From the NCBI GenBank assembly GCA_025055675.1, contig JANWWT010000005.1:124001-188000 (forward strand): a stretch of 64,000 bases of DNA, read 5' to 3'. Position numbers and translations under genes: made by a program. Position 1 is the first letter of the stretch. Each line of letters starts with the position of its first letter. The DNA is from Pseudanabaenaceae cyanobacterium SKYG29 (GTDB lineage Bacteria > Cyanobacteriota > Cyanobacteriia > Pseudanabaenales > Pseudanabaenaceae). The notes under the pieces were generated by a model, which saw nothing but the letters and a program-made list of their open reading frames with translations, ran no database searches and was not told the origin of the DNA. This document shows positions 5,039-37,672 of the stretch, piece by piece.

Positions 5039-7111
5039 CTAGAAATTCCAAATTTCATAGCGTCCGTCTAATTCCGTTAAAATTTGTCCCCCTGTGTTAC
5101 CAGGCAGAACCCCTACCCACTTACGGGCTGGCTGCTCCCTAATTGTGCTGTAAATTAAATCCCCTGTCTCTGTGAACACAGCTACCATGGGATAATAGCG
5201 ATTACCTAAGTCCACCTGATCCTGCTGAATTTCCATCACTATCTCCGCTATACTATCCCCGTTGATGTCCGCTACCGTAACCTGCCACTCCTGTAAGCGC
5301 TGCTGAAAACTGGGCAAATCCAAGGAGACTTCACCAAAGGTCTGTAACTCCCCATAAATAGCACGCCCGACCCGATCGCTGACAATCGTCCCCAGCTCCC
5401 CCAAACGCTGGCGGGGTAACTGGCTCAAGCTACCCCCATTTACTACCACCATCGGTAAGCGGTTGCCCGCAATGCCCCTGCTGATGTACTCCGAACCACT
5501 AGCTAAAATTTCCACATTGCCAGCCTCATCCACCCAGATCGAGCGGGCAGTGACACTGAAGAAACTGGCGTAATCGGGGCGTTCAATTTCAATGACATTG
5601 AGGAGGGGTAACCGATCGAGGCTGAGGGCTTTCCAGACTGTTTTGGGGGAGCGTTGCCCAAATTCCGCAATAGGGGTATTTTGCCAAATTTTGCCATCCC
5701 TAATTGCCATGGGCGTTACCACATACCAGGTCTGTCCTACTGTCAGCTCGCCAGGGGGCAGATACCAACGATCGGTGGGAGTTCCTTCTAGGGGGACAAG
5801 GGTAGCCAAAAATTGCTGCGGGCGGATTGTGAGGGGAGCCACATCCAAGGTATCTAAAACCGCCAGATTTTCGGGGGTCGCCCTACTCCTTTCCCGCAAC
5901 CAAGCACGAGCACTGGGGAGACCTTCCTTGACCATAACTATAATTGCCCCCCAGGCATAGGCACTAGGGTCATTATTCACTTGCAAACTCGCCTGTACCC
6001 TGCGCCAGAACAGCCTGTCATCCTTCTGTAGAAGATTGATGATACTACGGGCATTACTGTCACTGCGGGTTGCCAGGGTCAGGGCCTGAGCAAATTGCCC
6101 ATCCACAAACAAATTGCGTACCTGTTCGCCCACATCCGTGAGAGCTTGTTGTGCCCGCTGGGCTGTCAGATTGGCATGGTAGGCAATGTAGGCGTGTTGC
6201 TCGCGAATTGGGATAGAGAGCTTTTCATCAGGTTTTTGCCAAATTTTCAGGGCAGGTGACCACAGACCCGCACGGGCAAGCAGGAGAGCGTTACTGTAAG
6301 TTTTACCCAGTTTGCCCCGTTCTGCCAGGGAAATGTTGCGCAGTTCATAGGGATTGCCTTTGTCCCCCGTCGGCACTACTCGTAAGATTTCTAAAAATGG
6401 CTCTGGCTCTAGGGTTTGGTCAATAACAATCTCTGCCCGATCGGGGACATTCGGCTTAGGTGGTAAGTTGATAACTTCCTGCCAGGTGGGCAATTTCCCC
6501 CCCGGACTGACCCATTCTGCCAACATATAGAGCCGGGGTTGGGGCTTCATCGTTAAGTGGAATATTAACCCGTAGACTCCATTGTTAGCTTTGCCGCTCG
6601 TTAAAAACCAGATTTCCTCTTTGGGTTGCTCTCCCTGTAGTTCTTGCAATTCCGTAAAGGGCCGGATAGGGTCATTGCCCCGCCCTGGGGTAGTTGCTTG
6701 GTAGCGTTGGCGGACAGCATCGATTGTGGACTGGCGCAGTCCCGTAACCTCCACCGCATCCACCAAATGCCATTTACCACGGAATTTGCGTGCCGCTGCC
6801 TGATAGAGACGAATTTGTCGCACCTCCTTTTTGTGGTTAAGTACAGGATAGAGAGCTAAATCCTTTATGCCCAAGGGGAACTGTTCCCCCAGGGTCAAAT
6901 TAGCCCGCTTTAACTCATCTTTAATTTCCGCTAGGGATTGGGGAGGCGGCAACAATAACTCTTGCAATACTTCTGCCTCTGGTACACCCGTAAAATTGGG
7001 GTCCACAAGGGCACGCCAGCCCCAGGCGGTGACAAATAGCAAACCTGGTATACTAAGCCAGACCAGTACCTGACCCCAGGGTAGGGGAAAGTCCTTCACC
7101 CGAATTTTCAT
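5039..7111 (-). CDS. Large membrane-anchored protein of unknown function
   Basis: I do not recognise this 690-residue protein. One transmembrane helix at about 13-32 (VLVWLSIPGLLFVTAW) follows a short basic N-terminus, so the rest probably lies in the periplasm or lumen. The middle is rich in helical, TPR-like stretches (about 285-420). The end holds VADINGDSIAEIVMEIQ, a DxNxD-like calcium-binding loop as in FG-GAP/VCBS repeats. It is 34 bp upstream of the binding-protein gene on the same strand and divergent from leuA. The two may form one unit concerned with an extracytoplasmic ligand, which is inference. Confidence 0.6.
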   Translation of the reverse strand: MKIRVKDFPLPWGQVLVWLSIPGLLFVTAWGWRALVDPNFTGVPEAEVLQELLLPPPQSLAEIKDELKRANLTLGEQFPLGIKDLALYPVLNHKKEVRQIRLYQAAARKFRGKWHLVDAVEVTGLRQSTIDAVRQRYQATTPGRGNDPIRPFTELQELQGEQPKEEIWFLTSGKANNGVYGLIFHLTMKPQPRLYMLAEWVSPGGKLPTWQEVINLPPKPNVPDRAEIVIDQTLEPEPFLEILRVVPTGDKGNPYELRNISLAERGKLGKTYSNALLLARAGLWSPALKIWQKPDEKLSIPIREQHAYIAYHANLTAQRAQQALTDVGEQVRNLFVDGQFAQALTLATRSDSNARSIINLLQKDDRLFWRRVQASLQVNNDPSAYAWGAIIVMVKEGLPSARAWLRERSRATPENLAVLDTLDVAPLTIRPQQFLATLVPLEGTPTDRWYLPPGELTVGQTWYVVTPMAIRDGKIWQNTPIAEFGQRSPKTVWKALSLDRLPLLNVIEIERPDYASFFSVTARSIWVDEAGNVEILASGSEYISRGIAGNRLPMVVVNGGSLSQLPRQRLGELGTIVSDRVGRAIYGELQTFGEVSLDLPSFQQRLQEWQVTVADINGDSIAEIVMEIQQDQVDLGNRYYPMVAVFTETGDLIYSTIREQPARKWVGVLPGNTGGQILTELDGRYEIWNF

Positions 7112-35251: not shown

Positions 35252-35707
35252 ATGGCTCAGTCGATTTACACAGCGGAAGCACTAAAGGCGGAATTGAATT
35301 CCAAGGGTTGTCGTATGACTCCCCAACGGGAAAAGATTCTCAAGGCGTTCCAGGAGTTGCCAGAGGGCGAACACCTCAGTGCAGAGGACTTGTATCACAG
35401 ATTGCAGGCTCAAAATGAAAACATTAGCCTTTCTACCATCTACCGTACGGTGAAGATGATGGCGCGTATGGGCATTCTGCGGGAGCTGGAACTGGCGGAG
35501 GACCACAAGCACTATGAGCTAAATCAACCCCGTCCCCACCACCACCATCACCTCATCTGTGTCAAGACCAACAAGGTGATAGAGTTCAAAAATGACCAGG
35601 TGCTCAGTATTAGCCAAAAGGTGGCAGAAAAATACGGCTTCCAAGTTCTGGACTGTGAGTTACGCATTGTGGGGATTAGCCCGGAAGGACAACGATCGAT
35701 TTTCTAA
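35252..35707 (+). CDS. Fur family metalloregulator
   Basis: The 151-residue product is a Fur-family repressor. [14 protein letters not shown] and [18 protein letters not shown] form the winged helix, and [20 protein letters not shown] is the metal-sensing hinge. It resembles cyanobacterial FurA/PerR. The Cys pair usual after the His run is broken here (CVKTN instead of CxxC), and only Cys20, 103 and 135 are present, so the structural zinc site may be absent. Which metal or peroxide signal it senses is open. Confidence 0.85.
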
Positions 35708-36720
35708 ACAATCGGTCTAAAGCCGTGCTTGCGGGAGAGTGCGCCAATTTGCTCCATTTTGGCGAGCGTGATTTGGTTGCGTCCCCAGGAAAAATTGGTG
35801 TACCAGCCCTCAAACTCAAGCAGCATAGATTCGGCAAAGCAAGCAAACAGATGGCGGGGGGAGTGGTAGCGGTTGACCCATTTCATGATCTGCCAATCCA
35901 TGTTTAGGTCATGCTCTACCATACCGCCGTTAATGACTTGTACATCAGGTACCTGAATCTTGTTGGCTAGGTTTTTGGGATACCCCCCGTCAATGAGAAG
36001 GGACGGTCTTTTGAGTATGTCAGGACTAATTTCCATCCCCTTGGCCATACTTGCCACCCATACAACAATGTCAGACTGGGGCAGTGCTTCCTCGATCGTC
36101 ATGATCTTGCCCCTACCCAAACTCTCTTGGAGAGACTGCAAGCGTTCCTGATTGCGGGCAACCAAGATTAACTCCCGAACGGGGGTACGAGCATTTAGCC
36201 ACCGACAGACAGCACTGCCAATATCTCCCGTTGCCCCACACACTGTTACTGTTGCCTTGGCGAGGTCGATACCGTATTTCTGTGCTCCTTCTTCTACCTG
36301 GCGACAGATAATGTAAGCAGTGTGGGTATTGCCTGTGGTAAAGCGTTCCACCTCCAGTTTGATATTGCGGAAATGGAGCATTTCCATGAGGTTAAAGTTT
36401 TCAAAAATAATGGAAGAGAATCCCCCCAAGGCAGTGATGTTAATGCCCTGCTTTTGAGCGTGGGCCATAGCATTGAGGACTTTGCGGGTGGCAGCTTTGA
36501 ACTTCTTGAGCAGGAGCATTTCCGGGAGAAAGCAGGATTCCACATACTTGCCCACGATCGTTTTCCCCGTAATGCTTTTCACCGTTATGTCTGCCACAAT
36601 CTGGGGCGGAGCAACACACCAAAAGTCCAAGTCCTGTTGGGCATACTCGTCGTAACCCAATTCCCGCGCTACCTCCTGGGCATGGGCGAGACTAGTGAGA
36701 TGACCAATTAAGCCAAACAT
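35704..36720 (-). CDS. aar: Long-chain acyl-ACP reductase
   Basis: AAR reduces fatty acyl-ACP to the aldehyde, the first step of cyanobacterial alkane synthesis. The 338-residue product opens [15 protein letters not shown]. The acyl-transfer Cys is probably in [13 protein letters not shown], and the NADPH-binding loop is [18 protein letters not shown] (around 166-183). [19 protein letters not shown] is a family block. It lies 4 bp downstream of ado and overlaps the Fur gene by 4 bp. Length is normal. Confidence 0.95.
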
Positions 36721-36724
36721 AAAC

Positions 36725-37396
36725 CTATGCTAGACCGTAGGCTGCCATCTTCATAATTTCTCTGGTGGAGAAACCAATGTTACCAAGGGTTTCACTGTAC
36801 TGGGTCATGAAATCTGCCATTAATTCCTCCCGTTCCATGCCCAGGGTGCGGGCATCCTCTGTAACTTGATTGAGCATTTTCCACACCAGGGGCAGGTTCT
36901 GGCGGTTAGCCGTTTCTATGTCTGCTTTCACGGCGGCAAAGTTAGCTCGGAGCCACTCCTCGCCAAAATTGAGGTGTAAGTACTCATCCTTGACTACACC
37001 CTCTGTTATCTTGCGGGCAAAGGGGTCTGCCACAGGAATGTAAATGTTGTAGGCGGCAATAGCAAAACATTCGATAATCAGAGACTGAATGACTAAGCAA
37101 GGGACTAAGTTACCGTGCTGTAGTGCTGCGTCAAAGTTTTGCTTCAGTTCTGCGAAAAATCGGCGGGCATAGTCCATATCAGGGATAACTTCTAAGTTTT
37201 TGCCACAGGCAGTAAATCCCTTCTTATGCCGCTCTTCCATCTTGGCAAGTTTGTGTAGGTCTTCCGCGTGAGTGGGTAGCAGTTGCGTCAGAGCCAGATA
37301 GTTGTCATGTGCCTCCTGTTCCCCTTCGATGACAATGGCATTGATGCGACTGTAAGCATCTTTGTAGGCGGGGCACTGGTAATTGATAGCTATCAT
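36725..37396 (-). CDS. ado: Aldehyde-deformylating oxygenase
   Basis: ADO turns fatty aldehydes into alkanes/alkenes plus formate, using a ferritin-like di-iron centre. The 223-residue product carries iron ligands in [33 protein letters not shown] and [13 protein letters not shown]. ado and aar form the usual two-gene unit, with ado first and a 4-bp gap. Confidence 0.95.
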
Positions 37397-37470
37397 CCTA
37401 GGGTGGGAGAATTCATATCGTGTTGTAAATAATTGTAAGGCAATAGCTCACCTTGTTCGCACATTAAAAT

Positions 37471-37487
37471 AGCCCCCCGCGGGGGCT
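37471..37487 (-). terminator. Hairpin terminator candidate downstream of rplI
   Basis: AGCCCCC at 37471-37477 pairs with GGGGGCT at 37481-37487, leaving a 3-nt loop. On the minus strand it is followed by ATTTTAATG, a weak U tract. It would end transcripts coming from rplI or the small ORF at 37517. Confidence 0.55.
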
Positions 37488-37516
37488 TGGCGATTAGAGG
37501 ACATCCAGGCAGTAGT

Positions 37517-37591
37517 TTAACTCCTAGGAGTAACTACAGTGACCTGATGCCCCATGCGTTTACCACATTTACTACTGTCTGGCACGGGCAT
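37517..37591 (-). CDS. Possible 24-residue small protein with strong ribosome site
   Basis: From ATG 37589-37591 to TAA 37517-37519 the minus strand encodes MPVPDSSKCGKRMGHQVTVV plus TPRS. AAGGAGGTGAT, almost the full complement of the 16S rRNA tail, lies at 37590-37600 and overlaps this ATG. A GTG at 37583-37585 lies 8 bases from the AGGAGG core and may be the real start (22 codons). A hairpin terminator follows 30 bp after the stop, and rplI lies upstream. I know no family for it. A non-coding RNA is the alternative. Confidence 0.4.
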   Translation of the reverse strand: MPVPDSSKCGKRMGHQVTVVTPRS

Positions 37592-37672
37592 CACCTCCTT
37601 CTTCCTAAACGGCTAACCTCTAAGGTTTCTATTCCAGCCTACTCTACCCTAACCCATTCGTCAAGGGGCAAT

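Follow-up and report, generated by a model that had tools for sequence, protein, structure and literature searches.

A conserved small open reading frame, probably of the ncl0160 type, that covaries with its own 3' untranslated region

The small gene ncl0160 was first seen in Synechocystis, with Nostoc sp. PCC 7120 among the carriers of homologs, and was predicted in 2016 to encode a conserved peptide (PMC4734099). The accessible part of that account counts 83 homologs with a conserved peptide of 23–25 residues, spread over the phylum with the marine picocyanobacteria left out. Here we describe a micro-gene on the minus strand of the window, the 64-kb stretch of DNA that was analysed, which from its description we take to be a divergent member of the ncl0160 family, apparently noted once before. 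Searches of Rfam, including RF01704, gave no match at the gathering threshold and, when relaxed to E 5, one sub-threshold snoRNA match; with no match above the gathering threshold, a known Rfam family was ruled out. The peptides of the window and of a second locus (L048) had no match in NCBIfam (E up to 1) and one sub-threshold match in Pfam (E 0.062). A literature search that covered few subscription papers returned nothing on the hairpin described below or on function.

A sequence-only reading had placed, downstream of rplI, a tiny frame with a near-complete complement of the 16S tail and its own terminator. The upstream gene is indeed rplI (L9, TIGR00158), and all the elements of the micro-gene were recovered on the minus strand (37600–37471). 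Its Shine-Dalgarno sequence, AAGGAGGTGAT (37590–37600, −), is complementary to the 16S tail over 11 bases; the tail itself had no match in this assembly, and GGATCACCTCCTTT was found in two of the five relatives searched. Conservation points to the GTG at 37585, 8 bases past GGAGG, as the start codon of a putative ORF (37517–37585, −) that encodes the 22-residue peptide MPDSSKCGKRMGHQVTVVTPRS and ends in TAA (37519–37517, −); the alternative upstream starts GTG 37594 and ATG 37591 would add three and two residues, respectively. Within the frame lies an element, GGGGCATCAGG (37543–37553, −; MGHQ/V codons), whose partner may be either a 3' element or the Shine-Dalgarno/start region. The predicted fold contains an inner hairpin, GTAGTTACTCC/GGAGTTAAACTAC (37512–37537, −), which holds the ORF end and the stop codon, and the 3' element CCTGGATGTCC (37499–37509, −), which by fold and family covariation pairs with 37543–37553 and is the GAAGACCC of relatives. 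An intrinsic terminator, AGCCCCCGCGGGGGGCT followed by ATTTTAAT (37463–37487, −), begins 29 bases past the stop codon with a stem of seven pairs, six of them G-C (37487–37471, −). Upstream, a promoter-like TTGACG–17–TAGGCT was read from the sequence at 37636–37664 (−), its last hexamer being a 3/6 match only, and a simple promoter scan made no call there. Between its predicted ends the transcript would measure about 173 nt in this genome and would be longer in most relatives.

The same reading held that so strong a ribosome site is unlikely to stand in front of noise. Across the whole 2.56-Mb assembly AAGGAGGTGAT has a single copy, against four hits of the reversed control pattern. Window statistics alone do not make the motif remarkable: a Shine-Dalgarno match with at most one mismatch was found once in the 64 kb against 1.18 expected. 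The case for a gene therefore stands on comparison, where cross-genome conservation rules out a chance motif. A strict pattern was found in 155 of 388 genomes of the class, its reversed control in none among the matches listed, and a DNA search gave a match in 45 of 58 genomes (20 of 31 genera). The covariance model R1, built from the 48 aligned loci of alignment A1, matches 295 of the 388 genomes and 140 of 160 genera, with one copy per genome as a rule; its training rows all carry a Shine-Dalgarno sequence, which biases the matches that way, and openness of the frame is not part of the model. Three of the 295 genomes match weakly (G108, G151 and G307; E 2e-4 to 4e-4), the rest at E ≤1.8e-9; the G108 and G307 matches were rejected as chance by score, and the latter (L237) also on sight of its sequence. 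Genome family f2, whose small genomes we take to be picocyanobacteria, is mostly without an R1 match. No copy was found in the viral, plasmid and phage collections searched, and a mobile or phage gene was ruled out on this ground.

Judged by its pattern of change among relatives, the frame is coding. In 153 cyanobacterial rows (the non-cyanobacterial loci L093 and L153 having been dropped beforehand), the frame opens, 8 bases past GGAGG, with ATG in 150 and GTG in 3, the seed pattern having admitted these two starts only, and the peptide has 23 residues in 129 rows and 24 in 20, with 22 in the window copy. The peptide length of 23–25 residues given for ncl0160 is matched by the family here, as is its wide distribution among cyanobacteria, heterocystous and otherwise; the accessible part of the account likewise has mostly ATG and few GTG starts, always with a ribosome site, and divides the stop codons into 47 TAA, 34 TAG and 2 TGA among 83 homologs, compared with 94, 58 and 1 among our 153 (PMC4734099). 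Frame 0 is open in all 69 dereplicated rows that bear an anchor, stops interrupt the other two frames in 39 and 48 of these rows, and the distance from start to anchor is 48 or 51, always a multiple of three (both counts exclude those 8 of the 77 dereplicated rows that lack the anchor). For differing codons the mean BLOSUM62 score is 0.38 in frame 0 versus −0.85 and −1.03 in the other frames, serine is conserved through differing codons (AGT, TCT, TCG and AGC), and the stop position shifts by whole codons between lineages. In a second alignment, A2 (94 hand-chosen loci), the frame is present in all 82 rows that lack the seed pattern, in 81 by rule (GGAG, ATG or GTG, and at least 15 open codons) and in the remaining one, L290, with GAGG and ATG. 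With a serine filter applied, an ORF is called in 68 of these 82 rows, with 67 ATG starts and one GTG.

Looking for the frame in relatives, the check proposed with the sequence-only reading, thus supports the small-protein branch of that reading, which had also offered a ribosome-binding regulatory RNA: the ORF is not broken but retained, with synonymous and conservative changes and with length changes of 3 bases only. Could the frame instead be a by-product of a conserved, ribosome-site-like RNA? The near-invariant sequence of the start region and the paired codons, which vary along with the helix, would fit such an RNA; however, the retention of the frame in every row of both sets (69 and 82), the ATG/GTG starts, lengths changing by threes, whole-codon stop shifts and the BLOSUM contrast make this explanation very improbable. 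We infer that the frame is translated in the cell and that the peptide is the working product. In relatives the peptide usually resembles MIESSKCMGHQVAVSRLCAGAVL, with a Ser-rich start (M-x-[DE]-S-S-K...), and it is polar and not membrane-spanning; the window's own genus is without the CAGAVL end. In one lineage (L213, L222 and L226), a TAG follows CTG in a helix bulge, giving a 17-residue peptide, and no stop codon stands at the customary later position.

A conserved hairpin takes its 5' arm from the second half of the ORF and its 3' arm from the 3' untranslated region, beside the terminator; from GGGUC on, the frame pairs with GUUCCUUCCGGCAGUC-GGUUUCAAUC-GAAGACCC. In A1, which was aligned without structure and used 48 of 58 offered rows, 93.8% of the cells over 28 pairs are paired versus 85.8% in shuffles, and sliding the partner by one column lowers pairing to ≤58.7%. 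Doubly changed cells number 142 versus 44.7 in shuffles, with double changes at 18 of the 28 pairs; in A2, an alignment fitted to the structure and model, they number 262 versus 62.3. Shuffling partners gave z −10.3 for the ORF/3' pairing. At one step, 18 of 155 rows were dropped for want of a recognised 3' end, for a short ORF or for too little flank. Residue substitutions within the paired half (H/L, C/R, G/E) track base pairing rather than chemistry, suggesting that the C-terminal half of the peptide may matter little; and because the conserved structure uses the codons themselves, "protein only" says too little about this gene. The window genus has a shortened hairpin that has lost its loop, and the stop codon of the window copy falls within the 3' arm. 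A further pairing, of 5' GTTTAGG with terminator CTAGAC, was inspected by eye, showed no covariation and was discarded.

Conservation of a hairpin at the RNA level, running through codons, would also suit a dual-function RNA that is translated and in addition acts in trans through the hairpin, by base pairing or protein binding, as in SgrS/SgrT and RNAIII. The short 3' sequences TTCCTTCCGGCAGTC are apparently more conserved than pairing alone needs; this, together with a downstream gene that is not constant, speaks for such a role. Equal conservation would nonetheless be expected of an element that regulates its own translation, and we regard action in trans as a real but lesser possibility.

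The genomic surroundings bear on whether the micro-gene serves a neighbour. In the window it is followed on the same strand by ado (aldehyde deformylating oxygenase) and then by the acyl-ACP reductase gene; this alkane-pathway pair (35704–37396, −) lies directly downstream in this genus. Among 136 loci there is no constant neighbour: the commonest downstream clusters, each named from one representative, are an OprB porin (51 of 136 loci, 290–1960 bases off) and a pterin dehydratase (26), psbD is upstream in 24 of the 136, and at some loci the large ORF that follows runs on the other strand (for example, YchF in L008). Of 112 dereplicated rows, 85 carry an upstream extended −10 (TGn(1-2)TAnnnT), mostly 44–81 bases before the Shine-Dalgarno sequence. 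The varying neighbours and this upstream element together mark the gene as its own unit. Classical attenuators combine a short ORF and its strong ribosome site with a terminator and alternative hairpins. The locus has this layout, with ado next on the same strand, and might be taken for a leader peptide or attenuator of a downstream gene; however, no downstream gene is constant among the 136 loci and some next ORFs run on the opposite strand, which leaves this account very unlikely. A leader peptide of ado or of another gene was ruled out as the neighbours change.

The structure may instead act on the micro-gene itself. The stretch UGAUGCCCAUG, which separates the Shine-Dalgarno core from the start, is complementary, with one bulge, to the frame segment CAUGGGUCAUCA, and the window RNA folds with either pairing at energies 1 kcal/mol apart (−56.1 versus −55.1 kcal/mol). 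Over 89 rows (the 94 loci of A2 minus 5), the mean energies of the two duplexes are −11.07 and −10.92 kcal/mol, compared with −5.3 and −5.6 with letters shuffled. Covariation is weak for the pairing that would mask the ribosome site: shuffling partners gave z −2.2 over the 89 rows, 32 of 2000 shuffles being as low, and z −1.2 (263 of 2000) in the 33 rows whose 5' element has changed. This pairing is absent in the lineages of L214, L223, L232 and L272, where the ORF/3'UTR hairpin is kept. A switch between the two pairings stands as a candidate.

Since the frame segment that pairs with the 3' arm is also a possible partner of the ribosome-site region, we favour a structure-tuned micro-mRNA, and consider it probable that the locus is a free-standing, single-copy mRNA of the ncl0160 family, translated to 22–24 residues and tuned by its own structure. 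The very strong ribosome site would drive translation of the peptide, and the hairpin structure would most likely control translation or decay of the micro-mRNA. With the in-frame element paired to the 3' arm, the ribosome site would be free; with the same element paired to the Shine-Dalgarno/start region, it would be masked; passage of a translating ribosome would undo whichever pairing had formed. If true, the switch would be unusual, one stretch of RNA serving as codons, ribosome-site mask and hairpin arm.

The named loci are cyanobacterial except for two in MAGs, L093 (Chloroflexota) and L153 (Thermomicrobiales), which are probable relatives outside the cyanobacteria. L153 (~5536–5656) scores 34.7 bits with R1 (E 5e-10) and folds into the same layout, and its frame segment has full complementarity to the ribosome-site region as well as to the 3' arm; the MAG may be contaminated. 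In L093 the frame itself encodes the anti-Shine-Dalgarno sequence GCATCACCTCC. We tentatively raise the possibility of a self-contained, bistable translation switch that predates the cyanobacteria, has no gene downstream and reports ribosome availability or its own translation; L153 would be the clearest example of such an ancient switch. Within family f2, L238 (G151, E 2e-4) has AGGAGG, a GTG start and a 17-codon frame, and its hairpin (GGGUC.../...GACCC, −42.8 kcal/mol), followed by a terminator, is similar to the family fold; it may be a distant relative, perhaps the picocyanobacterial form. Among the matches listed from 146 genomes of the phylum, the only one to R1 outside the class is L240 in G440, which was rejected as a family member because a different, hydrophobic ORF stands behind the same ribosome site. 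There AAAGGAGGTGATGCCT precedes the 23-residue ORF MKISITEKALLLILLITIMLELF, which has its own hairpin and looks type I toxin-like.

In type I toxin mRNAs, structure can mask an extended Shine-Dalgarno sequence. A peptide of this toxin type, its translation controlled by structure, would share this feature with the present family, and the non-homologous hydrophobic ORF of G440 sits behind the same ribosome site; yet the family's own peptide is polar and does not span a membrane, one copy per genome is the rule and the viral, plasmid and phage collections searched yielded none, which makes a toxin barely credible here.

Collectively, comparison across genomes shows a conserved ORF, a covarying ORF/3'UTR hairpin, putative promoter and terminator signals and no constant neighbour. 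A single-copy gene across most of a major phylum likely has a basic role, and this one is missing from Rfam, Pfam and NCBIfam, the family libraries that were searched. With the covarying hairpin, an exact start and stop and a model for searching genomes to hand, the question can be put to the test in laboratory cyanobacteria.

Set against the accessible part of the ncl0160 account, the covariation, the stop-codon shifts, the shortened form in the window genus and the probable Chloroflexota relative are apparently new; for the Nostoc copy, that part mentions a predicted structure and makes no mention of ORF/3'UTR covariation (PMC4734099). The yfr6 or Downstream-peptide motif (RF01704), in the portions of its descriptions available to us, resembles the present gene in having a short ORF on a short cyanobacterial transcript, but differs in that its conserved RNA is the 5' UTR and its peptides span 17–100 residues (PMC1242208, PMC2864571). 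SgrS/SgrT and RNAIII are likewise single RNAs with a small ORF and a conserved structure, dual-function RNAs as such being named in the accessible part of PMC2518516. Unlike in those RNAs, the codons of the ORF themselves form the conserved hairpin here.
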